In this document: piece after piece, positions 3,460-56,428 of the stretch
Numbering within the stretch: the stretch's first letter is position 1
Layout of the letters: the number at the start of each line of letters is the position of its first letter
Assembly (NCBI GenBank): GCA_947626935.1
Contig: CANQUD010000003.1
Span: 1-64,000 of the forward strand
Origin: an uncultured Clostridia bacterium
GTDB taxonomy: Bacteria; Bacillota; Clostridia; Christensenellales; Borkfalkiaceae
Direction of reading: 5' to 3'
DNA: 64,000 bases
Made by a program: the position numbers and the translations under genes
Notes under the pieces: generated by a model
Database searches by the model: none
Seen by the model: only the letters and a program-made list of their open reading frames with translations
What the model was told of the DNA's origin: nothing

Positions 3460-3487
3460 CTTCCCCCGAAAGGGGGAAGATTTTTTA
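3460..3487 (+). terminator. Rho-independent terminator
   Basis: The stem CTTCCCCC (3460-3467) and GGGGGAAG (3472-3479) with a GAAA tetraloop is followed by a run of T (3481-3486). It ends the lipoprotein gene at 3439. Confidence 0.88.
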
Positions 3488-3646
3488 TTTCGCGCGATTT
3501 CTTTTCTTCGAAAATAAATCCGCGCGAGCGAACTGACACTGTGCATCAATTAGGTCGCTCCGAAAACGTTATATGTACTGACATTAAGCCTACGGTAGTG
3601 TGGCAAATTGGGTGCGCTTTGGCGGGGGAACCCCGCCACGCGCAGT
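3488..3646 (+). repeat. A-family structured repeat, copy A1
   Basis: About 160 bp. Stem 1 uses CGCGCGATTTCTTTT against AAAATAAATCCGCGCG, where other copies use CGAACG against CGTTCG. The shared core reads TGTGCATCAATTAGGTCGCT and then CCGAAAACGTTAT. Stem 2 is GCCTACGGTAGTGTGGC and stem 3 is GGCGGGG/CCCCGCC. It starts in the T-run of the terminator at 3487. Confidence 0.75.
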
Positions 3647-3737
3647 GATTTTAGAATGTCCCCCCCATTCGTCACGGCTGCGCCGTGCCACCTTCCCCCC
3701 AGAGGGGGTCAGGTCTGGGCGAGCCTACCCCTTCGGG

Positions 3738-3843
3738 GTGGAGTGGCGCAATTCTGCTCAACAGCCCAGTGGGCTGTGAGCTGCGCCACGACAGGAGCGC
3801 TGGCAGGCGCGACGGGCTTTGCGGCGGTCCCTGCCGCCCAAAG
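3738..3843 (+). repeat. B-family structured repeat, copy B1
   Basis: The outer stem is GTGGCGCA/TGCGCCAC and the inner stem is ACAGCCC-AGT-GGGCTGT. A second hairpin is CTTTGCGGCGG-tccct-CCGCCCAAAG. The GTGG/CCAC pair replaces GCGG/CCGC of other copies, a compensated change. Confidence 0.75.
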
Positions 3844-3945
3844 AGGCTCCCGCGTAGCGGGTGGTGGGGGGGAACACGCCCCACCCCCTGTCGCGATGCG
3901 ACATCCCCCTCCCACGGAGGGGGTTCATGCCCACCCTCTCCATGG

Positions 3946-4055
3946 GAGGGTGGAGCGGCGCAATTCTGCTCAACAGTCCAGTGGACTGTGAGCTGCGCCG
4001 CGACATGAGGCGTGGCATCGCCGAAGGGCTTTGCGGCGGTCCCTGCCGCCCAAAG
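3946..4055 (+). repeat. B-family structured repeat, copy B2
   Basis: Outer stem GCGGCGCA/TGCGCCGC and inner stem ACAGTCC-AGT-GGACTGT. The T-A pair here replaces the C-G pair of B1, B4 and B5. The middle segment reads GACATGAGGCGTGGCATCGC and the second hairpin is as in B1. Confidence 0.75.
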
Positions 4056-4216
4056 GTAGGGGTGTGGGTCACCGTAGACCGTTCATTCAGAGCGCAGCGA
4101 TGGATCCCGACGAAACAGGCGGAAAGATTGCATTCTATTTGTTAAAGTTATACAAGCTATTATATAAATTTATACATGATGATTGTGTGAAAATCTTAAA
4201 TTTATCCCCAAAACAG

Positions 4217-12111: not shown

Positions 12112-13824
12112 ATGGAAGAAGAGACAAAGACTCCCGTCCCCGAAGAGACGCAGGAGAAGAAAACAAAGAAAAAGAGCCGCCTTCGGGCGTGGTGGCAAAA
12201 TCATAAGCCCACGAAGCGGCGCATCATCCAGCTCTATGCCGCCCTTCTGACAAACGCCAACATCAAGGGCTTTGCGTCGGGACGGATCTACGGCGGCACA
12301 GCGAAATATGCGTGTGTGCCGGGGTTGAATTGCTATTCCTGCCCCGGGGCGGTCGGGGCATGTCCCTTGGGGTCTCTGCAGAATGCCTTGGCGCAGTCGG
12401 GGACCCGTTTCCCCTTCTATGTATTGGGAATTTTGCTGCTCTTCGGCTTGCTGCTCGCAAGGACGATCTGCGGCTTTCTGTGCCCTTTCGGGCTTGTGCA
12501 GGATCTTCTCTACAAGGTCAAGACGCCCAAACTCAAGAAGAGCCGCTTCACCCGCGTGCTCTCCTATCTGAAGTACGTCGTCCTCGTCGTCTTTGTCTTT
12601 GCGCTGCCGACGATCTACGGCGTATTCGCGCACACGGCGCTCCCCGCATTCTGCAAATATATCTGTCCCGCGGGAACACTGGGCGGGGCGGTTGCGCTCC
12701 TCTCGAATGCGGCGAATGAGGGACTGTTCGCGAGCCTGCACGGGCTGTTCACATGGAAATTCTGCCTCATGGTGGGGATCGTCGTCGCCTGTATCTTCAT
12801 CTACCGTGCTTTCTGCCGATTTTTGTGCCCCCTCGGCGCGATCTACGGCTTCTTCAACCGATTCGCGCTCCTCGGCGTCAAGCTCGACAAGAACAAGTGT
12901 ACCGACTGCGGGCTGTGCACCGCCCACTGCAAGATGGATATTCGCCATGTCGGCGACCACGAATGCATCAACTGCGGCGAGTGCATCGACGTCTGTCCCG
13001 CCAAGGCGATCTCGTGGAAGGGGAGCAAGTTTTTCCTGCATCAGAATGCCGTCTATCCCGTCCCCGCACCCGAGACGGAAGAGCGCCCGATCGGAAGTGT
13101 GCTGTCCGTTTTCCCCGTGACGGGCGGGGAAAATGCCGAACAGGCGGAGACCTTGCCCGAAGCTGTCGGGACGAAGCCCGAAGCTGTCGGTTCGGCTCCG
13201 TCGGCGATCGCGCCGAAGGCTGCTCCGAGTCGGAAAGCGCTCCTGCTCCGCATCGCCGCATGGGTCGCGGCGCTTGCCGTTCTCATCTCCGCGCTCGTCT
13301 ATTTCAACGCCTGCGACCGCAGCAAAGAAGGGGGCACGACCCTCGAAGGCGGGAACAAAATCGGCGACATATGTTACGATTTCTCCCTTCCCTGCTATCT
13401 GAAAGAGGGGACGTTCACCCTCTCCGAACACCGCGGCAAGATCATCGTCATCAACTTCTGGGCGACATGGTGCGGCGGGTGCGTTGCCGAACTTCCCGAC
13501 TTCGAGCGCGTGCAGGAAGAGTATGCGGACGAGGTCGAGATTATCGCCGTCCACAGCGCCGACGTGCAGGAAGATGTCGTCAATTACATCGAGCGTCAGA
13601 TCGACGCAAACGACGGGACGCGCACATGGAGCGACTGGAGCCTGACCTTCGTGCAGGACAGCGGCGATGTGTTGGCGAGCGAGACATACGATCTTCTCGG
13701 CGGCTCGAGCGGCTATCCCATGACCGTCATCGTCGACAGAGAGGGGGTCATCCGTTTCTCGCGCGAAGGCTCCGTCTCCTACAACACGCTCAATTCGACG
13801 ATAAAGCTGCTACTTATGGAATAG
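12112..13824 (+). CDS. NapH-like polytopic 4Fe-4S protein fused to TlpA-type thioredoxin
   Basis: 570 residues. The first part is a membrane polyferredoxin of the NapH/CcoG-related type, with ACVPGLNCYSCPGA and ACPLGSL near the N-terminus, CGFLCPFG and CRFLCPLG at helix ends, and two 4Fe-4S motifs (Cys263, 266, 269, 273 and Cys285, 288, 291, 295). A further membrane helix at about 377-398 leads to an extracytoplasmic TlpA domain (about 420-570) with WATWCGGC (Cys454/Cys457) and GYPMTVIVDREG. The layout suggests electrons from cytoplasmic donors crossing to reduce the outer thioredoxin. The start at 12112 has a GGGGGGAG site. The longer frame from 12082 overlaps the preceding gene. It belongs with the CxxC-tail gene upstream and possibly the redoxin lipoprotein at 1877. 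Confidence 0.83.
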   Translation: MEEETKTPVPEETQEKKTKKKSRLRAWWQNHKPTKRRIIQLYAALLTNANIKGFASGRIYGGTAKYACVPGLNCYSCPGAVGACPLGSLQNALAQSGTRFPFYVLGILLLFGLLLARTICGFLCPFGLVQDLLYKVKTPKLKKSRFTRVLSYLKYVVLVVFVFALPTIYGVFAHTALPAFCKYICPAGTLGGAVALLSNAANEGLFASLHGLFTWKFCLMVGIVVACIFIYRAFCRFLCPLGAIYGFFNRFALLGVKLDKNKCTDCGLCTAHCKMDIRHVGDHECINCGECIDVCPAKAISWKGSKFFLHQNAVYPVPAPETEERPIGSVLSVFPVTGGENAEQAETLPEAVGTKPEAVGSAPSAIAPKAAPSRKALLLRIAAWVAALAVLISALVYFNACDRSKEGGTTLEGGNKIGDICYDFSLPCYLKEGTFTLSEHRGKIIVINFWATWCGGCVAELPDFERVQEEYADEVEIIAVHSADVQEDVVNYIERQIDANDGTRTWSDWSLTFVQDSGDVLASETYDLLGGSSGYPMTVIVDREGVIRFSREGSVSYNTLNSTIKLLLME

Positions 13825-13984
13825 TTTCGAACGATTTCTTTTGCTGCGCAAAAGAAATACGTTCGAGCGAACTGACGTTGTGCATCAATTAAGTCACTCC
13901 GAATACGTTATTTGGATTGACATTAAGGTACCTGTAGGGTACCAAATGGGGTGCGCTTTGGCGGGGAGACCCCGCCACGCGCAG
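13825..13984 (+). repeat. A-family structured repeat, copy A2
   Basis: The simplest copy. Stem 1 is CGAACGATTTCTTTT against AAAAGAAATACGTTCG with loop GCTGCGC. The core is TGTGCATCAATTAAGTCACT, then CCGAATACGTTAT. Stem 2 is GGTACCTGTAGGGTACC and stem 3 is GGCGGGGAGACCCCGCC. Its first base follows the stop codon at 13824. Confidence 0.8.
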
Positions 13985-14065
13985 GGATTGGGAATACGCC
14001 CCACCCCCTGTCGCGATGCGACATCCTCCTCCCACGGAGGGGGGTTCATGCCCACCCTCTCCATG

Positions 14066-14176
14066 GGAGGGTGGAGCGGCGCAATTCTGCTCAACAGTCC
14101 AGTGGACTGTGAGCTGCGCCGCGACATGAGGCGTGGCATCGCCGAAGGGCTTTGCGGCGGTCCCTGCCGCCCAAAG
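14066..14176 (+). repeat. B-family structured repeat, copy B3
   Basis: Matches B2 closely (inner stem ACAGTCC/GGACTGT, outer stem GCGGCGCA/TGCGCCGC, second hairpin ending CCGCCCAAAG). The flanks on both sides are also shared with B2, so the whole block looks duplicated. Confidence 0.75.
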
Positions 14177-14201
14177 GTAGGGGTGTGGGTCACCGCATTC
14201 T

Positions 14202-14350
14202 CTCGCTGCCCCTTTTAGGGGAAGTCCCCGAGCTCGCGAGGGGAAAGGGGTTTTGAAACCCTTCAGTCTCGCTTCGCTCGACAGCTCCCCTAAACCACCC
14301 CGCAAAAATACTTTGTCTTTTTGCGGGGACCCCGAGGGGCGCCAAGGGGG
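14202..14350 (-). repeat. C-family repeat, copy C1, with hairpin H
   Basis: Inverted relative to most C copies: CTCGCTGCCCCTTTTAGGGG at one end and CCGAGGGGCGCC at the other. A 40-bp hairpin (H, about 14294-14333) with stem CCCCGCAAAAA/TTTTTGCGGGG is set into it. The same H is found in C2 and C7. Confidence 0.7.
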
Positions 14351-14404
14351 TACTACGTCATCCCGCCACGTGCAGGGAGTGGCTCTCCGCAATTTCATTC
14401 CAAC

Positions 14405-14434
14405 AAAAAAATCTCCGCCGAGGCGGAGATTTTT
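14405..14434 (-). terminator. Rho-independent terminator, minus strand
   Basis: Stem ATCTCCGCC (14411-14419) and GGCGGAGAT (14422-14430). Read on the minus strand it is followed by TTTTTT (14410-14405). It ends the lipoprotein gene whose stop is at 14452. Confidence 0.85.
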
Positions 14435-16014: not shown

Positions 16015-17208
16015 TTACAAAATGTATTGCCGTTTTCCTTCCTGCAAGTCTCTCCAGACGGGGGACATGTCGCGCAGGTACTGCACGACTTTCGGGACTT
16101 CCCCGATCAGGTAATCGATCTCTTCCTCGGTGTTGTTTTCGTTGATCGTGAGGCGGAGAGACCCGTGCGCCACGTCATGGACTCTGCCGATCGCGAGGAG
16201 CACATGCGAGGGGTCGAGGGACCCCGACGTGCACGCCGAACCCGACGAGGCGGAGATGCCCTTGTCGTCGAGGAGCAGGAGAAGGGATTCCCCCTCGATG
16301 CCCTCGAAACAGAAACTGACATTCCCTGCGAGCCGCTTGACTCTGTCGCCGTTGAGGGCACCGTGGGGGATCTTTTCCAGCCCCGCGATCAGCTTATCAC
16401 GGAGAGCGGTGACCTTTTTCATTGTCTCGGGAAGGGAACCGACGGCTTCCTGCATCGCCACCGTCATGGCGCGGATGGCGGGAAGATCTTCCGTCCCCGC
16501 ACGCTTGCCGCGTTCCTGCGCTCCGCCCTCGATGAGGGAATAGACGGGGGATCCTTGCCTTGCATAGAGGACGCCGATCCCCTTGGGACCGCCGAATTTA
16601 TGGGCGGAGAGGGCGAGATAGTCACAGCCGATCTTTCCGACGTTCACTTCCATGTGCCCGACCGCCTGCACGGCGTCGGTGTGGAAGAGAACTTTCTTCT
16701 CCCTGCACAGCTTTCCGATCTCCTCGACAGGCTGGATCGTGCCGATCTCGTTGTTCGCAAGCATCACGGAGACGAGGCAGACGTTCTCGTCGAGCGCCTC
16801 TTCAAGGTCCTTGACTTTGACGATGCCGTCCGTCCCGACGGGGAGCAGGACAACTTCAAAGCCTTCCTTCTGGAGCTTCTTGAGGGTGTGCAGGACGGCG
16901 TGATGCTCGATGGCGGTGGAGACGATCTTTGTCTTGCCGCGGAGCTTCCCGAGACGGGCGGCGGAGAGAATGGCTTGGTTGTCTGCCTCGCTCCCGCCCG
17001 AGGTGAAGAGGATCTCCTTGGGCTGTGCACCGAGAAGGGAAGCGATCGACGCCCTGCATTCCTCGAGAAGGGACTTCGCTTCCTGCCCCGCAGAGTGCAG
17101 GGAAGAGGGGTTGCCGTAGATCATTTGCGCGGTTTCCGCATAGGCTTTGACGGCGCTGTCGCGCATCTTCGTCGTCGCCGCATTGTCAGCATAAACGTTC
17201 ATAATCAT
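16015..17208 (-). CDS. iscS: Cysteine desulfurase IscS/NifS
   Basis: 397 residues, a PLP enzyme that moves sulfur from cysteine to IscU. The PLP lysine is Lys204 in SAHKFGGPKG and the persulfide cysteine is Cys326 in SSGSACTSGS. EHHAVL and the TDAVQ region are also typical. The length is normal for group I NifS/IscS enzymes. Two starts are possible: ATG at 17208, and ATG at 17202, which is better spaced from the AGGA. It has a consensus promoter at 17231-17259 and a probable operator between promoter and start. It is the first gene of iscS-iscU-rrf2. Confidence 0.92.
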   Translation of the reverse strand: MIMNVYADNAATTKMRDSAVKAYAETAQMIYGNPSSLHSAGQEAKSLLEECRASIASLLGAQPKEILFTSGGSEADNQAILSAARLGKLRGKTKIVSTAIEHHAVLHTLKKLQKEGFEVVLLPVGTDGIVKVKDLEEALDENVCLVSVMLANNEIGTIQPVEEIGKLCREKKVLFHTDAVQAVGHMEVNVGKIGCDYLALSAHKFGGPKGIGVLYARQGSPVYSLIEGGAQERGKRAGTEDLPAIRAMTVAMQEAVGSLPETMKKVTALRDKLIAGLEKIPHGALNGDRVKRLAGNVSFCFEGIEGESLLLLLDDKGISASSGSACTSGSLDPSHVLLAIGRVHDVAHGSLRLTINENNTEEEIDYLIGEVPKVVQYLRDMSPVWRDLQEGKRQYIL

Positions 17209-17230: not shown

Positions 17231-17259
17231 ATTATAGCACAGTGATACGCAAGTGTCAA
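17231..17259 (-). promoter_or_regulatory. Consensus promoter of iscS-iscU-rrf2
   Basis: Minus strand: TTGACA (17259-17254), 17-bp spacer, TATAAT (17236-17231), with TGC just before the -10 element. Confidence 0.85.
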
Positions 17260-17345
17260 GGAAAAAATCAAAAATAAAAAAATGTGGTGAAGATAAGAGC
17301 CTGCCCTCTACGGGGTGGAGAGGGTAGAGCCTACCCCTTCGGGGG

Positions 17346-17505
17346 GGAGTGGCGCAATTCTGCTCAACAGCCCAGTGGGCTGTGAGCTGCGCCGCGACAG
17401 GAGCGCTGGCAGGCGCAGACCGCCCGCATTCTATTTCTTTCGAAGGGCGGCACGAGCGGCATCGCCGCGAAGTACGGGCTTTGCGGCGGTCCCTGCCGCC
17501 CAAAG
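17346..17505 (+). repeat. B-family repeat, copy B4, interrupted
   Basis: Inner stem ACAGCCC/GGGCTGT and final hairpin CTTTGCGGCGG/CCGCCCAAAG are present. The segment between them (about 17408-17474) is replaced by a longer one containing CGCATTCTATTTCTTTCGAA. The two hairpins are kept while the linker varies. Confidence 0.7.
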
Positions 17506-17550
17506 AGGCTCCGCCGAAGGCGGTGGTGGGGGGGATAACGCCTTATTCCT

Positions 17551-17692
17551 CTTGTCGCCCCTCGGGGTCCCCGCAAAAAGACAACGTATTTTTGCGGGGT
17601 GGTTTAGGGGAGATGTCGAGGCGTAGCCGAGACAGAGGGGTTTAACCCCTTTGGCTCACTGCGTTCGCCACTTCCCCTACAGGGGCAGCGAG
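17551..17692 (+). repeat. C-family repeat, copy C2, with hairpin H
   Basis: CTTGTCGCCCCT, then hairpin H (CCCCGCAAAAA/TTTTTGCGGGG), then GGGGAGATGTCGAGGCGTAG and the end AGGGGCAGCGAG. The TGTC/GACA stem around GAGGCGTAGCCGA is kept. Confidence 0.7.
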
Positions 17693-17726
17693 ACCCCCCA
17701 TTCGTCACGGCTTCGCCGTGCCACCT

Positions 17727-17833
17727 GTCTCATGCGGGTAGAGACCCGCATTCGGTCACCGCTCGCACGAGACAATGCGCTCGCTTCTGTCGCAACGCGC
17801 GAAAAGTTCACTGGACTTTTCGCAGAATGCGTT
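17727..17833 (+). repeat. G-family repeat, copy G1
   Basis: About 107 bp with stem GCGGGTAGAGACCCGC, then CGGTCACCGCTCGCACGAGA and AATGCGCTC. A second hairpin is GCGAAAAG-ttcactgga-CTTTTCGC. It sits inside a D element. A second copy is at 44585-44699, where the first stem is ACGGGTAGAGACCCGT. Confidence 0.6.
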
Positions 17834-17913
17834 GCTCCACCCCCGCTGGGGGTCAGGTCTCGCTACCACTTTTAGGGGAAAAGGGTTTCAAGTTACGGCG
17901 GCAGGTCATCATC

Positions 17914-17943
17914 AAAAAAAGAGAGACGTAATGTCTCTCTTTT
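17914..17943 (-). terminator. Rho-independent terminator of rpsF-ssb-rpsR
   Basis: Stem GAGAGAC (17921-17927) and GTCTCTC (17933-17939), followed on the minus strand by seven T (17920-17914). It lies 20 bp after the rpsR stop. Confidence 0.88.
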
Positions 17944-17962
17944 CGATACCCATTGATGTTTT

Positions 17963-18325
17963 TTAGTCTGCCTTGAAGGGGAGCAGGCAAGCGACGCGGG
18001 CGCGTTTGATCGCGAGGGCGACCTCTCTCTGGTGCTTCGCGCAGGTGCCCGTCATGCGGCGGGGCAGGATCTTTCCGCCCTCGCTGATGAACTTCTTCAG
18101 CTTGTTGACTTCCTTGTAGTCGATGGTGCTCTTTTCCTGGCAGAAGAGGCAGACCTTTTTGAAGTTGGGCTTCTTGAAGCCGCGCTTCGCGGGACGGTCG
18201 CCCTTGTCGCGTTCGCGGCGAGGCTCGGTCGTCTCCTTGATCTCCTCCTTGACTTCGGCTTCCGCGGATTCCTCGGTTTCCGCTACGGGTTCTGCGGGAG
18301 TCGTCAGCTCTTCCTTCTCTTCCAT
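17963..18325 (-). CDS. rpsR: Ribosomal protein bS18, extended N-terminus
   Basis: 120 residues. The C-terminal 75 form the bS18 core of the small subunit platform. It is the cysteine-bearing form, with Cys59/Cys62 (KVCLFCQEK) and Cys95/His98 (GTCAKHQ), which could bind zinc. About 45 extra N-terminal residues are rich in Glu, Lys and Thr and probably disordered. They are unusual compared with the normal 75-80 residues. Starting at a later codon would need a ribosome site that is not visible, while AAGGAGAA precedes this ATG. It is the third gene of rpsF-ssb-rpsR. Confidence 0.93.
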
Positions 18326-19176: not shown

Positions 19177-19237
19177 CACATTTTGAAGGGAAAATTCGAA
19201 GGATTTTGTTTTGCCCGCCGCGCTTACCCTCTCCATG

Positions 19238-19348
19238 GGAGGGTGGAGCGGCGCAATTCTGCTCAACAGCCCAGTGGGCTGTGAGCTGCGCCGCGACATG
19301 AGGCGTGGCATCGCCGAAGGGCTTTGCGGCGGTCCCTGCCGCCCAAAG
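19238..19348 (+). repeat. B-family structured repeat, copy B5
   Basis: Inner stem ACAGCCC/GGGCTGT (like B1 and B4), outer stem GCGGCGCA/TGCGCCGC (like B2 and B3), middle segment GACATGAGGCGTGGCATCGC. It combines states of different copies at the two covarying stems. Confidence 0.75.
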
Positions 19349-19371
19349 AGGGGAGTGGGTCACCGCATTCT

Positions 19372-19475
19372 CTTGTCGCCCCTCACAGGGGAGCTGTCGG
19401 GCGAAGCGAGACTGAAGGGTTTCAAAACCCCTTTCCCCTCGCAAGCTCGGGGACTTCCCCTAATAGGGGCAGCAA
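19372..19475 (+). repeat. C-family repeat, copy C3
   Basis: CTTGTCGCCCCTCACAGGGG, a variant middle stem GTCGGGCGAAGCGAGAC, paired GGGTTTC/CCCCTTT segments, then TCGGGGACTTCCCCTAATAG ending in GGCAGCAAG. It has no H insertion. Confidence 0.7.
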
Positions 19476-19646
19476 GACCTTACCCCCTACGGGGGGAAGG
19501 TGGATTTGCGTCAGCAAAGACGAATGGGGGGGAAGTTGTTGGCATTATCCCCCCCACCACCGCCTACGGCGGAGCCTCCCCCCGCTGGGGGTAGGCTCTC
19601 TTACTCTCTCCATGAGTGTACCGCGGTTTGTTCAAAGCACAAAGAA

Positions 19647-19686: not shown

Positions 19687-22600
19687 TCAGTGGCTGCCGA
19701 TGGCGGAGATGAGCGTGATCACTTCGTTGATGGTAAGGTCGCTCAAGTTCATCTTATCCTCGCCGAAAGGATACCTCCCGCCCGCGGCTTCGATGATCGT
19801 CTTGATCGGCGTAAGGTCGACATTGGGCTGGCTTTGAATGATCTCGTGAATATACATCTCGTTGAGGGTGAGGTTGTTGATCTTGCCCGCAACGTCCGTG
19901 ACGAGGGAACCCATCTCGGTGATCTTCGTCGTCGCGCCGTCTGTGCCGTCCTCTTTGGTGAGAAGGAGATACCAGACGCCCGCATGGTAGGCGGTGAGCT
20001 GTGTGCCCGAGCCGCTCTTTTCATAGGCGACTTCGACTTCGGAAAGTTCGTGATAGTGACTGCCTTCCACGAAGAGGTGATGTACTTCCGCATACTCGGT
20101 GTAGTAGGGAGCGCCCGTGCCGTTGTCATAGACGTGCGCGTCTTTGGGAAGGTCTGCGCCGTTGAGTTTGTAGACGGCGGGGTATGCCTCGAGGTCGACG
20201 CGGTTGCCGTCCTCATCGGTGTAGTAGAAGTTCTTATCCGCGTCCTGTTCCACATTGCCGTTGTAGGGGACTTGATGTGTAGGGTTGTCGTAGTCGTAGA
20301 TGTAGTACTTCGTCTCTTCCTTGGTGACGGTGACCTTCACCTTTGTCACATACTTGATCGCGCCGCCCTCGAACGTCTTGAGGACCTTGCTCTCGTTGAC
20401 GGGGGTATAGCTGCCCGCGGAACCCGTGTACCAGCCTTCCGTGACGCGCGTATTCGCAGTTTTGAGGCGATAGTACTTCGTGACGGAACTCTTATCGCTG
20501 ACGATCCCCGTGGGCTTTGCGTCGCTCGGGACGGTCTCCGCATACGACCAGATGTCGTCGCCGAACACATCCTCGACGGTGAGGGAGTCGATCGCGCTGC
20601 CGATCGATTTGATCTGCGTGTTCTTGATGGAATTGAGGATCTTGTTGTCGGCGCTGAGGTCGATGACGTCGCCGAGGGTAAGGGTGTCGATGCTCGTCGT
20701 GATCTCGCCGAGGGACATCTCCTTGAGCGCCTGCAGCATCTTGGGCGCACCGTCCCCGATCGAGATGACGTCGCCGAGGGTGAGGCTGTCGATCTTCTCC
20801 TGACTGCTGAGGTCGGAGATGCGCCAGTCCTGCATCGCGTGGAGAATGCCTTGGTCGCTTTCGGACTTGAGGATCTGCCCGATCTTGAGGCGTTCGATGC
20901 GGTTCTGGTTGCCGAGGTCGCCGATCGCCCAGTTCTCCATGGCTTTGAGAATGCCCGAAGCGTCCGAGGTGTCGAGAACGTCCTTGATCTTGAGGCTCTC
21001 GATTTTTTCTTTCTTCTTGATGTCGGCGAGCGTCCAGTCTTCCATGGCATGGATGAGGGGAGAGGTCGCATCTGACGGGTCGAGGAGATCCCCGATCGTG
21101 AGGCTCTCGATCTTGTCTTTATCCTTGAGGTCGTCGAGTGTCCAGTCCGCAAGAGTCTGCATGATCTGCGAGGAATCGCTCGTGACGTTGAGGATGGACC
21201 CGAGCGTGATGCCGTCGAGAAGGGAAGCGTCCTCTTTGGTCAGATCGCCGATCGTCTTTTTGGAATAAAGCTTGCCCGTCGCATCGTTGGGGTCGGGAAG
21301 CATGACGATCTTGTCGTTTTCGATGACATACTTGCCGCCGCCCATGTATTGCTTTTTCCCGTCCGCGGTCGGCTCGGGATCGAGCATGTATTTGCCGTTT
21401 TCATCCTTGAGGTAATTGCCGTCCTCGCCCTTCTTCATCTCGTTGCCGTAGGCAATGGTGCGGAGAATGGAGTCCGAACCGGGCTTGATCCCGAGGAGAG
21501 AGTCGATGTAGAGACCGTTGATGAAATTGGTAGATTCATCGGTGAGATCGCCGAGCGTCGTCGCCGCGTGCCCGGGGAGCATTTCGATGAGTCCGCTCTC
21601 GTTGATCTCGTAATCTTCGCCTTCGGTGCCGTAGCAGAGGGCGTACATCATGGAATTTGAATCCATGTCCGCGACCTTGTCGGCGGTGTTGAGACCGAGC
21701 ATTTCGCCGAGGGGAAGTCCTTTGACGAAGTCCGTCGATTCGTCGATGAGGGTGTTGACGGAAGTTGCCTTGCTCTCGCCCTTCATCTTCAGATAATAGC
21801 AGCCCGCGATGGGATTTCCCTTGTCATCCTTGAGCTGTTCAAAGGTGTAGTCTTCGTTTTCGGTGCCGTAGCAGAGGGTGTAGACCATGGAGCTGTCGCC
21901 CTCGCCCGTCTCGGAGTCGAGCTTGATGTCGATGCCGAGGAAGGAGCCGAGGTCGATGTCGCCGAGAATGTCGAGCATGCCGTTCTCTTCGGAGCCGCTC
22001 TCCTCTCCGCCTTCTTCCGCAGACGTGGGTTGAGGGGAAAGGTCGTCATCTTCCTTGAGGGCGGGGATGAGGTCGGTGATGTTCTTGGGCTTGTTGTCGC
22101 CGAGCATGACGATCGTCTTTGTCGTGTTGCCGTTTTCGTCCTGCGTCTCGCCGATCGTGTAATGCACGCCGAGCTTGCCGTAGCTGAGCGCGTACATGGG
22201 GGCGTTGCTCTTGATCGATTCGGGAGTGACGTCCTTGTCAAGTCCGAGGACGGGTCCGAGTTCGATCTGGGGCAGAAGGTCCTTCTTGACGTACGACCCG
22301 ATCTGACCGAAGGGCTGGTCCTTGATGTCGGCAAGGTCGAGCTTGACGCCGAGTTCCTCGAGATTTTGCTTTACGAGCTGGTCGATGTATGTGTCGATGA
22401 GGGGGGTATACTTGGAGAAGTCGTTGAGGGTGAGATCCCCGGGGCTGCCGCTGAGCCTGTTCATGTCGGCGACGATCTCGTCGTACATCTCAAAGACGGA
22501 CTTGTCGAGATAGTCCGCGCTGATGTACTGTTCCGCCTCGAACCCGAACTGCGCCAGAAGATCCCTCGAGGGACCGCCGAGCAAGATCGCGCCCGCACCG

Positions 22601-23322
22601 ACGACGCCGCCGAGGGCGGCGAAAATTCCCATGAAGAATGCGAGAGAGACGCCGAAAATGCGCCAGAAAAGTCCTCTCGGCTTGTATTTGTTGCGGAGAG
22701 GGATCTCGCCCGCTTCGACGAGTTCCTTCTCCCGTTCGAGCTGCTTTTTGAGGAGTTCTTTCTTCTCCTTGCGGGTCATCTTTTGGGGCTTTTCCTTCTT
22801 GCCGTCCTTCCCCGCGGGTTTTTCGGGCTTTTCGGGCTTTTGCTCCGCGTTCCCGCCCTGTTTCTTGGCGGCTTTCTGCGCGGCGGCGGCTTCCTTCTGC
22901 GCCTTCGCCTGTGCCTCTTTCTGCGCCTTATCCTTGGCTTTTTGGGCGTCCGCCGCTTCCTTCTGTGCCTTCGCCTGCGCCTCTTTCTGCGCACGTTCTT
23001 TGGCTCTCTGCGCGTCCGCGGCTTCCTTCTGCGCCCTGTCCTTGGCTTTTTGGGCTTCGGCGGCTTCTCTCTGCACCTTCGCCTGCGCCTCTTTCTGCGC
23101 ACGTTCCTTGGCTTTCTGCGCGTCCGCGGCTTCCTTCTGCGCCCTGTCCTTGGCTTTTTGGGCTTCGGCGGCTTCTCTCTGCGCCTTCGCCTGCGCCTCT
23201 TTCTGCGCACGTTCCTTCGCCTTCTGCGCTTCGGCGGCTTCCCTTTGCGCCTTCGCCTGAGCTTCCTTCGCCGCTTTGTCCTCGGCGGGTCTCGTCGGTT
23301 TTTGGTTCTTTTCGTCTGCCAT
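19687..23322 (-). CDS. Membrane-anchored giant protein: A/K/E/Q/R helix inside, degenerate LTLGDVI repeats outside
   Basis: 1211 residues. About residues 14-165 are an unbroken Ala/Lys/Glu/Gln/Arg stretch made of a 36-residue period (AQKAKERAQKEA, QAKAQREAAE, AQKAKDRAQKEAAD). It is expected to be one long helix or coiled coil in the cytoplasm. A basic segment precedes a single membrane helix at about 218-250 (WRIFGVSLAFFMGIFAALGG). The outer part has two repeat kinds: longer units such as TLGDLTDESTNFINGLYIDS, then IL-x-TIAYG, and shorter 32-35-residue units such as AMEDWTLADI with KIESLKIKDVLD. These recur at least six times between about 680 and 860. No enzyme motif was seen. Its own promoter and terminator flank it. 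It may be a cell-envelope spacer or scaffold. Confidence 0.72.
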   Translation of the reverse strand: MADEKNQKPTRPAEDKAAKEAQAKAQREAAEAQKAKERAQKEAQAKAQREAAEAQKAKDRAQKEAADAQKAKERAQKEAQAKVQREAAEAQKAKDRAQKEAADAQRAKERAQKEAQAKAQKEAADAQKAKDKAQKEAQAKAQKEAAAAQKAAKKQGGNAEQKPEKPEKPAGKDGKKEKPQKMTRKEKKELLKKQLEREKELVEAGEIPLRNKYKPRGLFWRIFGVSLAFFMGIFAALGGVVGAGAILLGGPSRDLLAQFGFEAEQYISADYLDKSVFEMYDEIVADMNRLSGSPGDLTLNDFSKYTPLIDTYIDQLVKQNLEELGVKLDLADIKDQPFGQIGSYVKKDLLPQIELGPVLGLDKDVTPESIKSNAPMYALSYGKLGVHYTIGETQDENGNTTKTIVMLGDNKPKNITDLIPALKEDDDLSPQPTSAEEGGEESGSEENGMLDILGDIDLGSFLGIDIKLDSETGEGDSSMVYTLCYGTENEDYTFEQLKDDKGNPIAGCYYLKMKGESKATSVNTLIDESTDFVKGLPLGEMLGLNTADKVADMDSNSMMYALCYGTEGEDYEINESGLIEMLPGHAATTLGDLTDESTNFINGLYIDSLLGIKPGSDSILRTIAYGNEMKKGEDGNYLKDENGKYMLDPEPTADGKKQYMGGGKYVIENDKIVMLPDPNDATGKLYSKKTIGDLTKEDASLLDGITLGSILNVTSDSSQIMQTLADWTLDDLKDKDKIESLTIGDLLDPSDATSPLIHAMEDWTLADIKKKEKIESLKIKDVLDTSDASGILKAMENWAIGDLGNQNRIERLKIGQILKSESDQGILHAMQDWRISDLSSQEKIDSLTLGDVISIGDGAPKMLQALKEMSLGEITTSIDTLTLGDVIDLSADNKILNSIKNTQIKSIGSAIDSLTVEDVFGDDIWSYAETVPSDAKPTGIVSDKSSVTKYYRLKTANTRVTEGWYTGSAGSYTPVNESKVLKTFEGGAIKYVTKVKVTVTKEETKYYIYDYDNPTHQVPYNGNVEQDADKNFYYTDEDGNRVDLEAYPAVYKLNGADLPKDAHVYDNGTGAPYYTEYAEVHHLFVEGSHYHELSEVEVAYEKSGSGTQLTAYHAGVWYLLLTKEDGTDGATTKITEMGSLVTDVAGKINNLTLNEMYIHEIIQSQPNVDLTPIKTIIEAAGGRYPFGEDKMNLSDLTINEVITLISAIGSH
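22870..23290 (-). repeat. In-gene 108-bp tandem repeats
   Basis: Near-exact tandem DNA repeats encode the 36-residue helix period of the 1211-residue protein, about three and a half to four units. The high identity, including silent sites, points to recent expansion. Copy number may vary between strains. Confidence 0.75.
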
Positions 23323-24616: not shown

Positions 24617-24942
24617 TTTCGAACGATTTTGTTTATTCGTCCACCCCTTGCCCACCCCTTGAGGGGTGGGTGCCCCGAAGGGGCGGAAGGGGTGTCCTTC
24701 AAAACAAAATACGTTCGAGCGAACTTACATTGTGCATCAATTAAGTCGCTCCGAAAACGTTATATGTACTGACATTAAGCCTACGGTAGTGTGGCGCGTC
24801 GCGACACTGCGCAGTTTGCGCGGCTTTGCGGGAACGCAAAGCCGTCGCCTGAAACGTAGGTCGCTCCTTTTCCAAAAAATCTTGCTTTGCAATATTTTTT
24901 GGATGCCTGTGGCTTTGGCGGGGGAACCTCGCTACGCGCAGT
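24617..24942 (+). repeat. A-family repeat, copy A3, with two nested insertions
   Basis: Stem 1 CGAACGATTTTGTTT/AAACAAAATACGTTCG encloses F2 (24648-24696). After the core and stem 2 (CCTACGGTAGTGTGGC), about 120 bp with its own hairpins, including CCAAAAAATCTTGC/GCAATATTTTTTGG, is inserted at about 24795-24910. Stem 3 (GGCGGGG/CCTCGCC) then resumes. The stem-1-plus-F part is nearly identical to A5. Confidence 0.72.
24648..24696 (+). repeat. F-family repeat, copy F2
   Basis: Sits in the loop of A3 stem 1. Its sequence and both junctions match F3 inside A5. Confidence 0.75.
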
Positions 24943-25107
24943 AATTTGAGAATGTTCCCCCCCATTCGTCACGGCTGCGCCGTGCCACCTTCCCCCCGCT
25001 GGGGGTAAGGTCTCGGCACAGAGCCTACCCCCAGCGGGGGGAGGCTCCCGCGCAGCGGGTGGTGGGGGGGATAATGCCATTCCGCATTTCATACGTCATC
25101 ATAACGC

Positions 25108-37016: not shown

Positions 37017-37022
37017 TGAAAT

Positions 37023-37054
37023 AAAAACAACGGCAGGTACCTGCCGTTGTTTTT
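37023..37054. terminator. Bidirectional terminator
   Basis: The perfect palindrome AAAAACAACGGCAG-GTAC-CTGCCGTTGTTTTT works in both directions. It ends the GH3 operon (+) and backs up termination of mnmG (-) beyond the repeat island. Confidence 0.92.
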
Positions 37055-37057
37055 ATA

Positions 37058-37190
37058 TTGAGTGAATAACACCCCTTCCGTCACTGCGTGACACCCACCC
37101 CTCGAGGGGTGGGCAAGAGGGACCTTGGCTCCCCCTTGAGGGGGAGCTGTCGCCATCGGCGACAGAGGGGGTGTCTCTGTGCGATCGCGT
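37058..37190. repeat. Intergenic repeat island 7
   Basis: An inverted F element (37069-37117) is followed by a C-type part with CTCCCCCTTGAGGGGGAG and the stem CTGTCGCC-at-CGGCGACAG. The stretch 37069-37144 is the closest visible relative of the insertion inside mnmG. Confidence 0.78.
37069..37117 (-). repeat. F-family repeat, copy F4
   Basis: ACACCCCTTCCGTCACTGCG, then TGACACCCACCCCTCGAGGG ending GTGGGCAAG. Read on the minus strand in one frame it gives SCPPLEGWVSRSDGRGV, which compares with ACPPLDGVSRSDGRGV inside MnmG. Confidence 0.8.
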
Positions 37191-39156: not shown

Positions 39157-39248
39157 AGTCGTTGAAATGAATGATTTTGCCTGTTTTTTGTTTCCCGAGG
39201 GGGGGATGACGTGGATACCCTTGGCTCCCCTCGGGGGTCCCGCTTTCT

Positions 39249-39352
39249 CTTGTCGCCCCTCACAGGGGAGATGTCGAGGCGTAGCCGAGACAGAGGGGTT
39301 TTAACCCCTTTGGCTCACTACGTTCGCCACTTCCCCTAAAAGGGGCAGCGAG
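39249..39352 (+). repeat. C-family repeat, copy C4
   Basis: CTTGTCGCCCCTCACAGGGG, GATGTCGAGGCGTAGCCGAG, then paired AGGGGTTTT/AACCCCTTT and the end AAGGGGCAGCGAG. It has no H insertion. Confidence 0.7.
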
Positions 39353-39469
39353 AGGAAAACTGCGGTGACCCACACCCCTACCCCTCTCCCATGGAGAGGG
39401 TGGACTTGAACCCCCTCCGTGGGAGGGGGATGTCGCAACGCGACAGGGGGTGGGGCGTGTTCTCAATCG

Positions 39470-39629
39470 CTGCGCGTGGCGGGGTCTCCCCGCCAAAGCG
39501 CACCCCATTTGCCACACTACCGTAGGCTTAATGTCCCTACAAATAACGTGTTCGGAGTGACCTAATTGATGAACAACGTTACATCGCTCGCGCGGATTTA
39601 TTTTGCGAAGCAAAAGAAATCGCGCGAAA
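39470..39629 (-). repeat. A-family structured repeat, copy A4
   Basis: Read on the minus strand it begins TTTCGCGCGATTTCTTTTGC, 6 bp after the dnaA stop, with the stem partner GCAAAATAAATCCGCGCGAG. The core is present with a few changes (TTGTTCATCAATTAGGTCAC). Stem 2 is GCCTACGGTAGTGTGGC and stem 3 is GGCGGGGAGACCCCGCC. The A/T-rich first hairpin could help end dnaA transcription. Confidence 0.75.
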
Positions 39630-39635
39630 TTAATT

Positions 39636-43008: not shown

Positions 43009-44229
43009 ATGAAAAAACAAATGATACTCTTTGCGCTCTCTCTTTTGGGGAGCGCTCTTTTTTTGGGCGGCTGGACGTTCGGCAGAGTGAAACAGGGGGT
43101 CGTCGTCGACGGCGTCGAGGTCGGCGGACTCTCCTTCGCGGCGGCGGAACGGGAAGTCCGCCTTCGTCTCCGCTCCGCGCTCCCGCCCTTCATCGTCCGC
43201 ACGGAAGAGGGGGACGAACTGTTCGAGACGGGCTTTACGGACGACCTTGACAGCCTTCTCCGCCACGCAAAGAGGGGGGAAGAGCTGCACGCGAACATCG
43301 CAAGGATCTGGGTGGACGCCGAAGAAGAACTCTCCGCCCTCTGTCAAAGGCACACAATTCCGCCGCAGGACGCGACGCTGTCATTTTCGGCAAGAGGGTT
43401 CGCATATTCCAAGGAAAAAGTTGGAATGGGGTGCGATTTTCAGAGACTTCTCTCCGACGTGACGGAAGCGCTCAACGAGGGTCGGACGGAAGTTTTTCTG
43501 CATACATTCCCCATTTTTCCGAAAGAGACGGAAAAAACTTTGCGTGCGCGTACGCAGGCGCTCGCTTCCTATACAACGTACTATGACGCCGCCAACACGT
43601 CCCGCGCCCACAACATCGCCCTCGCCGCGAGCAGGCTTTCGGGGTCGGCGATCGGTCCCGGGGAAGAGTTCTCCTTCAACGCCGCCGTCGGCAAGCGGAC
43701 GCGCGAAAACGGCTTCGAAGAGGCGAAGGTCATCAGCGGCGGGGAATTCGTGACGGGCGTCGGGGGCGGGGTGTGCCAAACGAGCACGACGCTCATGAAT
43801 GCCGCGCTCCTTGCGGGGTTGAAGGTCACGGAGAGCCGTCCCCACTCCCTTGCGGTCGGCTATGTTCCGCCCTCGCGGGATGCCATGGTCTCCGACGGCT
43901 CCGACCTCAAATTCGTCAACCCGTACGATGTTCCCGTCTATCTTTTGGGACTTGCGGGCGGCGGAAAGGTGCAGTTCACCTTCTACGGTCTCCCCGACGG
44001 CAGGACATACGAGGTCGAGAGCAAGGTGCTGCTGACCGCCGAACCGCCCGCGGAGAAGATCGTGGAAGGGGATGAGGACGGATGGATCCGTGCGCCCAAG
44101 CAGGGGATCGCGAGCGAGAGCTATCTGCTCGTCTATCGGGACGGAACACTGCTCTCCCGCACCCTTCTCCGCCGCGACACCTACGCCGCCGTGCAGGGAA
44201 TACGGCAAGTCAAGAGGGAAGAGGAGTAG
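43009..44229 (+). CDS. VanW family protein, membrane-anchored
   Basis: 406 residues with a membrane helix at about 5-24, about 170 residues of an N-terminal region that includes a peptidoglycan-binding-like part (VDGVEVGGLSFAAAEREVRLRL), and the VanW core at about 205-340 (GEEFSFNAAVGKRT, GGEFVTGVGGGVCQTSTTLMNAAL, HSLAVGYVPP). VanW proteins occur near cell-wall genes and some vancomycin clusters. Their activity is unknown. No other van gene is present, so this is not evidence of resistance. GAGGAG precedes the start, 9 bp after the PHP gene. Confidence 0.87.
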   Translation: MKKQMILFALSLLGSALFLGGWTFGRVKQGVVVDGVEVGGLSFAAAEREVRLRLRSALPPFIVRTEEGDELFETGFTDDLDSLLRHAKRGEELHANIARIWVDAEEELSALCQRHTIPPQDATLSFSARGFAYSKEKVGMGCDFQRLLSDVTEALNEGRTEVFLHTFPIFPKETEKTLRARTQALASYTTYYDAANTSRAHNIALAASRLSGSAIGPGEEFSFNAAVGKRTRENGFEEAKVISGGEFVTGVGGGVCQTSTTLMNAALLAGLKVTESRPHSLAVGYVPPSRDAMVSDGSDLKFVNPYDVPVYLLGLAGGGKVQFTFYGLPDGRTYEVESKVLLTAEPPAEKIVEGDEDGWIRAPKQGIASESYLLVYRDGTLLSRTLLRRDTYAAVQGIRQVKREEE

Positions 44230-44281
44230 GCTCTCATACCCTCTCCATGGGAGGGTGGTAGGGGTGTGGGTCACCGCTTTT

Positions 44282-44390
44282 CTCGTCGCCCCTCACAGGG
44301 GAGATGTCACGAGCAACGCGAGTGACAGAGGGGTTTTGAAACCCCTTTCCCCTCGCAAGCTCGGGGACTTCCCCTAAAAGGGGCAGCGAG
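44282..44390 (+). repeat. C-family repeat, copy C5
   Basis: The middle stem is TGTCAC-gagcaacgcga-GTGACA, where C4 and C6 have TGTC-gaggcgtagccga-GACA. The stem is kept although the sequence differs. The outer CCCCT/AGGGG hairpins are shared. Confidence 0.7.
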
Positions 44391-44497
44391 GGGTACAACT
44401 TCTCCCCGTCCCCCGTACGTCATTCCGAACGCATGTGAGGAATCTCGTCCTTGAGATTTCTCGGCTACGCCTCGAAATGACGTGAATGCAGAGTCCC

Positions 44498-44719
44498 CTT
44501 GTCGCCCCTCACAGGGGAGATGTCGAGGCGTAGCCGAGACAGAGGGGTTTCAAAACCCCTTTCCCCTCGCAAGCTCGGGGACTGTCTCGGACGGGTAGAG
44601 ACCCGTCCTCGGTCACCGTTCGCGCGGGATAATGCGCTCACTCACCGCAAAACGCAGCGCACAGCACACCGTGCTGATGCGCAAGAATTGCGTTTTGCGA
44701 CCCTAAAAGGGGCAGCGAG
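44498..44719 (+). repeat. C-family repeat, copy C6, split by G2
   Basis: The left part matches C4. After TCGGGGACT the element is interrupted by G2 and resumes with CCCTAAAAGGGGCAGCGAG. Confidence 0.68.
44585..44699 (+). repeat. G-family repeat, copy G2
   Basis: Stem ACGGGTAGAGACCCGT, then CGGTCACCGTTCGCGCGGGA and AATGCGCTC. The second hairpin is CGCAAAACGCA/TTGCGTTTTGCG with a GTGC-rich inner part. It resembles G1 with different but self-complementary arms. Confidence 0.6.
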
Positions 44720-44808
44720 ACCTGACGCCCCACTGGGGTAAGCAAATTCCATGGCAACATCGATTTTTAATTTTTCATGTTCAATTTTCAATTTCGATCG
44801 AAAAACGG

Positions 44809-55623: not shown

Positions 55624-55846
55624 TTTCGAACGATTTTGTTTTTTCGTCCACCCCTTGCCCACCCCTTGAGGGGTGGGTGCCCCGAAGGGGCGGAAGGGGT
55701 GTCCTTCAAAACAAAATACGTTCGAGCGATGTAACGCTGTTCATCAATCGAGTCACTCCGAATACGTTATTTGTATTGACATTAAGGTTCCTGTAGGGTA
55801 CCAAATGGGGTCGCCCACGGCGGAAGTGAATTCCGCCTATGGCAAG
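55624..55846 (+). repeat. A-family repeat, copy A5, with F3 nested
   Basis: Begins on the base after the hslU TGA. Stem 1 is CGAACGATTTTGTTTT/AAAACAAAATACGTTCG around F3. Stem 2 is GGTTCCTGTAGGGTACC. Stem 3 is GGCGGAAGTGAATTCCGCC instead of GGCGGGG/CCCCGCC. Confidence 0.78.
55654..55702 (+). repeat. F-family repeat, copy F3
   Basis: In the loop of A5 stem 1. Identical by eye to F2 in A3, including the flanks TTCGTCCACCC and GGTGTCCTTCAAAACAAAA. Confidence 0.75.
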
Positions 55847-55857
55847 TGATTTATATG

Positions 55858-56070
55858 TTTCGAACGATTTTGTTTTGAAGCTCACATTTTTCTTCGACTC
55901 GACACGTCATTCCGAACGCAGTGAGGAATCTCAAAACAAAATACGTTCGAGCGATGTAACATTGTGCATCAATTAGGTCACTCCGAATACGTTATATGCA
56001 AGGACATTAAGCCTACGGTAGTGTGGCAAATGGGGTCGCCCACGGCGGAAGTGAATTCCGCCTATGGCAA
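55858..56070 (+). repeat. A-family repeat, copy A6, with an I element nested
   Basis: Stem 1 as in A5, but the loop holds CACGTCATTCCGAACGCAGT followed by GAGGAATCTC (I element, also at about 44421). Core TGTGCATCAATTAGGTCACT. Stem 2 is GCCTACGGTAGTGTGGC. Stem 3 is GGCGGAAGTGAATTCCGCC. Confidence 0.78.
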
Positions 56071-56223
56071 GTAATTGGGGAATGCCCCCCCACCACCCGC
56101 TGCGCGGGAGCCTCCCCCCCGAAGGGGTAGGCTCTGTGCCGCCGCCAAGACCTTACCCCCTACGGGGGGGAGGTGGCACGGCGCAGCCGTGACGAATGGG
56201 GGGGATAACGTCATTCCGCATTT

Positions 56224-56371
56224 CCTTGCTGCCCCTCATAGGGGAAGTGCCCCGTAGGGGCAAAGGGGTTTCAAAACCCCTCTGTCACTCGCGTTGCTCG
56301 TGACATCTCCCCTAAACCACCCCGCAAAAATACTTTGTCTTTTTGCGGGGACCCCGAGGGGCGACAAGGGG
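56224..56371 (-). repeat. C-family repeat, copy C7, with hairpin H
   Basis: CTTGCTGCCCCTCATAGGGG, the middle stem TGTCAC-tcgcgttgctc-GTGACA, then H (56315-56356) and CCGAGGGGCGACAAG. H is in the same relative place as in C1 and C2. Confidence 0.7.
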
Positions 56372-56428
56372 ACTCCGTCTCATTCCAAGAACATACTACA
56401 AATTTTCAATTTCTCTGAAGGAGCACAT

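Follow-up and report, generated by a model that had tools for sequence, protein, structure and literature searches.

Intergenic hairpin islands in an uncultured Clostridia bacterium and DUF559 nuclease genes as candidate partners in their spread

Results

The focal island and its neighbours

The window, a 64,000-nucleotide stretch of contig C3, belongs to a MAG of 1.675 Mb in 55 contigs that is 93.7% complete; its closest named relatives, judged by the DUF559 protein described below, are gut Clostridia, uncultured MAGs whose isolate names start with 'Lapin'. The focal island (17285-17905) is a mosaic of modules recognised by genome-wide BLAST and by self-BLAST of the window, with 102 BLAST matches in its own 1.675-Mb genome, the top non-self ones at 90-96% identity. 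It lies between an aminotransferase class-V gene (16015-17202, minus strand), on whose promoter it borders, and the 3' end of an S18 gene (17963-18325, minus strand); both genes were identified by Pfam. The promoter, a sigma-70-like TTGACA-17-TATAAT with 12/12 matches (17231-17259, minus strand), adjoins the island and is kept upstream of the aminotransferase gene in congeners. A terminator-like hairpin 3' of the S18 gene (17913-17944, minus strand) was found by eye and was not picked up by a consensus scan, and an Rfam search of the window gave no matches to known RNA families.

Within the island lies an R unit (17551-17692), seen in the sequence as two inverted modules arranged tail to tail, with the junction GGGGTTT-AACCCC at 17640-17649 and an extra hairpin in the left arm; it is the gene-less version of a junction that holds a DUF559 gene in contig C14. 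To its left is a module (17327-17416, plus strand) in which the GCGCAATTCTGCTCAACAG hairpin block comes after the hairpin GAGCCTACCCC..GGGGGAG, a member of direct-repeat family D5, which has five copies in the window. To its right is an inverted module tail with the second hairpin CCCCCCATTCGTCACGGCTTCGCCGTGCCACCT (17694-17727, minus strand; family D13). Among congeners with the same S18 neighbour, L180 is without the island and has a gap of 159 bp, and L173 and L174 have unrelated sequence, so that the conserved presence at operon ends expected of a boundary element is not seen at this site; these genomes are too diverged for the empty site to be placed to the base.

Other islands of the window

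Self-BLAST of the window recovers all ten of the islands that the earlier note had described, the first as ~38-289, the focal one as ~17317-17877 and the shortest as ~37021-37152. The island at the window start (1-290) contains an M module (140-188) and its inverted partner. M modules are also present at 24647-24695 in the island at 24617-25090, where the module lies inside the loop of a longer palindromic repeat, at 55654-55702 in the island at 55624-56379, and in both orientations in a short island in a convergent gap (37021-37177). The islands at 19226-19599 and 39235-39633 each have an R unit, and the one at 44222-44739 has two. The remaining islands are at 3484-4074 and, in a convergent gap, at 13822-14434.

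The longer palindromic repeat, TTCGAACGATTTTGTTTT..AAAACAAAATACGTTCGAGCGA, is found at 3484-3620, 13822-13960, 24617-24800, 55624-55790 and 55849-56010; its loop holds an M module at 24647 and at 55654, and different sequence in the remaining copies. It seems to be a family separate from the modules. CGTC-type repeats, CGTCATTCCGAACGC..GAGGAATCTC, lie within islands at 44440-44520 and ~55905-55940 and resemble CGTC-tagged REPs (PMC3733652). A 1211-aa ORF (19687-23322, minus strand) contains 42/66-nt tandem repeats at 22847-23264 and has no Pfam match.

Anatomy of the modules

Modules start with a C-rich/G-rich hairpin (hairpin 1), in most cases followed by another (hairpin 2), and end in a G-rich tail in which the 3' arm of hairpin 1 recurs. 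R and M modules are exemplified by CTTGTCGCCCCTCACAGGGGAGATGTCGAGGCGTAGCCGAGACAGAGGGGTTT and CTTGCCCACCCCTTGAGGGGTGGGTGCCCCGAAGGGGCGGAAGGGGTGT respectively, and each is predicted to fold into two hairpins as single-stranded DNA. They are arranged either as tail-to-tail inverted pairs, with short centres such as GGGGTTT-AACCCC and GGGGTGTCATTCCGAATCGGGACACCCC, or as single halves; judged by eye, a GTAG tag at the hairpin foot is not constant in R or M modules. Hairpin 2 is swapped among otherwise identical M modules with its pairing kept (CCCCGAAGGGG, GGCTCGCCGCTTTGCGGCGAGAC, GGCACGTGCAAAGCGCGTGAC and TCACGCAGTGA).

A stem test on 22 hairpin-2 variants gave a value only slightly higher than in shuffled sequence (4.64 versus 3.93), in part because many stems are interrupted by a symmetric GA/GA internal mismatch. 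This mismatch is common to several R hairpin-2 stems that are otherwise unrelated (e.g. 17613-17638 in the window), and a GNA triloop is frequent in R-type hairpin 2. Together they might form a recognition feature for a Vsr-like enzyme, and the frequency of GNA triloops around DUF559 genes (19%, versus 8% in shuffled sequence) is no more than suggestive of recognition of single-stranded DNA.

Genomic distribution of the islands

Counts were made across 25 contigs totalling 1.07 Mb, with genes called by a hexamer model, repeats defined as having at least three other copies, and islands as at least 60 bp of repeat. The repeat share of this 1.07 Mb is 0.7% in coding and 29% in non-coding DNA. Islands prefer 3'-3' gaps, being present in 23 of 73 convergent gaps, 53 of 597 codirectional gaps and 10 of 71 divergent gaps. 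Generic hairpin-plus-tail modules number 117, compared with 15 in block-shuffled sequence, and there are 42 R-type half modules.

The earlier note had proposed that islands account for nearly all non-coding DNA longer than 300 bp and that they lie between operons and almost never inside them. The first statement describes the window well, with islands in all eight of its full gaps of at least 300 bp, but is weaker genome-wide (74/137, 54%). As for the second, 53 of the 86 islands are in codirectional gaps; with the repeat removed 26% of these gaps would be 50 bp or shorter (58% of codirectional gaps without an island are that short), and 'almost never' is therefore too strong. 'Boundary' describes the position of the islands, not a demonstrated function. 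That position fits insertion into tolerated DNA between terminator and promoter, and the most likely reading is that islands lie between transcription units because insertions are tolerated there. An assembly artefact was considered and rejected: some contigs end in islands, yet most islands are internal, and the link between hairpins and DUF559 recurs in other assemblies, closed E. coli records among them.

DUF559 genes at module junctions

The earlier note took the islands to look like non-autonomous elements mobilised from elsewhere or like a boundary system in the spirit of REP/BIME arrays, and named RAYT, IS200/IS605-type or other enzymes as ones to look for. Dispersed palindromes of high copy number, extragenic and in inverted pairs as REPs are, are indeed what is present, but a RAYT or IS200/IS605 enzyme is not supported: a search of the whole 1.675-Mb genome for Y1_Tnp (PF01797), the domain of RAYT and IS200/IS605 proteins, gave no matches. 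A nuclease gene flanked by these modules was found elsewhere in the genome, however, in the form of three DUF559 genes (PF04480, YcjD/Vsr-like) scoring 103-118 bits, above the Pfam cut-off. All three are inside islands, each flanked on both sides by modules and placed where two inverted modules meet: the C14 gene is in an R junction (AGGGGTTTcaaATG...TAAACCCCTCTGTC), the C6 gene in an M junction (GGAAGGGGTGTcatatTG...TGAtacaACACCCCCTCA), and the C45 gene between GGGTGGGTCACCTTATT and AATAAGGTGACCCAC. Their start and stop codons are within or near the module tails, and junctions without DUF559 have a short centre in place of the gene, so that gene-bearing and gene-less R and M junctions have inverted ends in common, as in MITEs. 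Only 5 of 755 other genes in this genome have a repeat within 90 bp on both sides, and those recognisable by sequence are housekeeping-like genes between two islands. The putative active-site residues E24, D51, E62, D64 and H68 are at least 99% conserved in 80 DUF559 proteins, and a relative with a solved structure (3hrl) is named endonuclease-like.

DUF559 flanks in other genomes

DUF559 loci were scored for a C-rich hairpin with a stem of at least 8 within 90 bp of the gene, using neighbouring ORFs as controls. At 54 loci from many phyla and from the Borkfalkiaceae, hairpins lie upstream of 81% of the genes, downstream of 69% and on both sides of 56%, compared with 10%, 13% and 2% of 190 control ORFs (Fisher p=1.7e-19 for both sides). 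A held-out class-level sample of Clostridia, scored with thresholds unchanged, gave 89% upstream, 56% downstream and 56% on both sides for 27 loci, and 9%, 11% and 2% for 46 controls (p=1.5e-7). In many Clostridia the right-hand module supplies the last codons of DUF559 (..SLSQLR*), as it does C-terminal codons in Rhodanobacter. Plasmid genes of Azospirillum, Sinorhizobium meliloti, Sphingobium, Pseudanabaena and Picosynechococcus have the same layout with other sequences; the plasmid sample count leaves out two Deinococcus loci and Methylobacterium, for which the wrong ORF was placed.

Repetition of the flanks within 10 kb shows no significant excess at DUF559 genes over control flanks (p=0.18). 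Module density does not differ significantly with DUF559 presence among 24 family genomes (p=0.24), as compared with a narrow module finder and 13-100 kb sampled per genome. Five or six of ten module-bearing congeners are without a clear DUF559 gene, and a protein search for overlooked copies in G117, G042, G099, G105, G066 and G009 gave nothing convincing.

Rhodanobacter, E. coli ycjD and TMECO repeats

The TMECO 'intrastrand triplex' motif, CCCTCNCCC-N3-6-GGGNGAGGG-N3-GGGNGAGGG, has 3610 copies in 262 proteobacterial genomes, and hairpin repeats of this type, common across bacterial genomes, have been connected with instability between strains (PMC4666352). That study reports no connection with mobile elements and nowhere names DUF559, Vsr or an endonuclease (PMC4666352), and in the open-access literature we found no paper joining DUF559 or ycjD to hairpin repeats. 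The Rhodanobacter DUF559 gene is enclosed by 43-nt inverted ends that are 93% complementary, and the end sequence has ~20 dispersed copies; the two ends at locus L115 match the TMECO motif once 2-5 bases are allowed in the last spacer. No locus in the genome of the window fits the exact TMECO pattern, even with that relaxation.

In E. coli K-12, ycjD belongs to the DUF559 family, and it is separated from fabI by a perfect TMECO. In strain A_5 a second, inverted TMECO overlaps the 3' end of ycjD, with the stop codon in its loop. This right-hand copy is intact in A_5 (L191, 1884-1918) and a shortened relic in K-12 (L188, 5408-5440), so the element end varies within the species. Strains A25 and NADC 5570 (L189 and L190) have a TetR/RND efflux cluster after fabI, not ycjD and TMECO. 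Strains without ycjD beside fabI were therefore rejected as a clean empty site, as this cluster occupies it.

Movement and inheritance

Two 488-bp copies of a hairpin-tail-ORF-tail unit (L096 and L097) are 98.8% identical and lie at different places in one genome, as expected of a mobile element; the identity starts at the left hairpin. M modules likewise are in the loop of some copies of the longer palindromic repeat and absent from others. One DUF559 site is common to three congeners (L053, L129 and L142); as with RAYT genes, this points to stable inheritance rather than to recent movement.

Discussion

We favour, with moderate confidence, the reading that the modules derive from small mobile elements with a DUF559 nuclease as their sole gene, being either the ends of such elements or copies that have lost the gene by internal deletion. 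The DUF559 elements are best read as the autonomous partners and the modules as their REP/MITE-like derivatives, and the islands most likely as accumulations of this system, with the Vsr-like DUF559 nuclease as its candidate enzyme. The nuclease would recognise the folded module on a single strand and nick or cut at its edge, after which host repair or template switching would place a copy of the unit at another intergenic site that is single-stranded or broken. PD-(D/E)XK nucleases cut DNA but are not known to join it on their own, and this copying step is therefore an inference. Gene-less pairs and half modules would be served in trans by the same enzyme and would accumulate wherever the DNA between transcription units is dispensable, which would produce the mosaic islands, and the gene itself could stay at one place, like a domesticated RAYT.

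The exact placement of the gene in the junction of inverted pairs would also be expected of a homing parasite, in which case modules spread by other means and DUF559 cuts gene-less pairs and is copied into them by repair. Vsr-like homing endonucleases exist, gene-less pairs far outnumber gene copies, and modules are still present in congeners that have no clear DUF559 gene. However, the coding sequence extends into the modules, and genes from different phyla come with different module sequences; this is more in keeping with element ends than with a target. Such a parasite would also not explain how the modules themselves spread, and we consider this account unlikely. Still less probable is that DUF559 is a passenger, one gene among many to survive by chance in insertion-tolerant islands, and takes no part in the spread of the modules. 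The islands are tolerated insertion sites with other mobile families inside them, and the co-occurrence of modules and DUF559 at the genome level is weak, but the gene keeps its position and orientation at the junction in many phyla even though the sequences differ, and few other genes show such a layout.

The transcriptional boundary role raised in the earlier note, with islands kept for ending or insulating transcription between operons, would account for the convergent-gap enrichment (23/73) and for a focal island between a terminator-like hairpin and a promoter. Against it, the hairpins are without T-tracts, the S18 gene already has its own terminator-like hairpin, congeners have no island (the 159-bp gap of L180) or unrelated sequence at the focal site, a quarter of the codirectional islands are in operon-like gaps, and the position by itself is explained by insertion tolerance; we regard such a role as very improbable. 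Mobilisation by RAYT or IS200/IS605 enzymes, as with classical REPs, is hardly credible even with Y1 transposases in 45 of 121 family members, given that this genome has no Y1 gene, that only G009, G066 and G084 among module-bearing same-genus genomes have one, and that the gene found with module ends is DUF559.

A broader form of the favoured reading, that DUF559/YcjD genes are trans-phylum minimal mobile elements (a Vsr-like PD-(D/E)XK nuclease with folded C/G/G ends) and the source of several orphan repeat families, namely the clostridial hairpin islands, proteobacterial TMECO and cyanobacterial C-run/G-run repeats, seems to us evenly balanced between true and false. Hairpin repeats without a RAYT have no known enzyme, and DUF559 is a candidate that carries their end sequences. 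If the reading is true, it would give a role to a large family of so far unassigned function, and REP-like systems would have arisen with an unrelated nuclease too. The presence of ycjD in E. coli K-12 makes repeat spread directly testable in a laboratory strain.

Comparison with known systems

The REP/BIME and RAYT 'REPtrons' (PMC8266576, PMC3733652) are the system of high-copy extragenic palindromes, often in inverted pairs, that the modules recall; they too lie mostly between convergent and codirectional genes, and include one repeat-flanked enzyme gene, sometimes at a fixed site, as at DUF559 loci. They differ in having a HuH Y1 transposase where a Vsr-like PD-(D/E)XK nuclease is present here, and in that the modules here comprise two hairpins and a G-rich tail with a further copy of the first hairpin's 3' arm. 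CGTC-tagged REPs (PMC3733652) are likewise dispersed palindromes without a known transposase and have lookalikes in the islands, but differ from the modules in sequence. TMECO (PMC4666352) shares with the modules the order C-arm, G-arm and G-tail, an intergenic location, inverted pairs and instability between strains, and copies of the exact type flank the Rhodanobacter DUF559 gene and are present at E. coli ycjD; the window modules nevertheless fall outside the exact pattern, and PMC4666352 names no enzyme.

MITEs resemble the modules as gene-less units that share inverted ends with a gene-bearing copy, but no DDE transposase is seen with them here, and lone half modules are common. Vsr-like homing endonucleases are similar to DUF559 in having a related nuclease fold and in being stand-alone selfish genes; they reside inside conserved genes or introns, whereas DUF559 lies in intergenic hairpin arrays with inverted ends.
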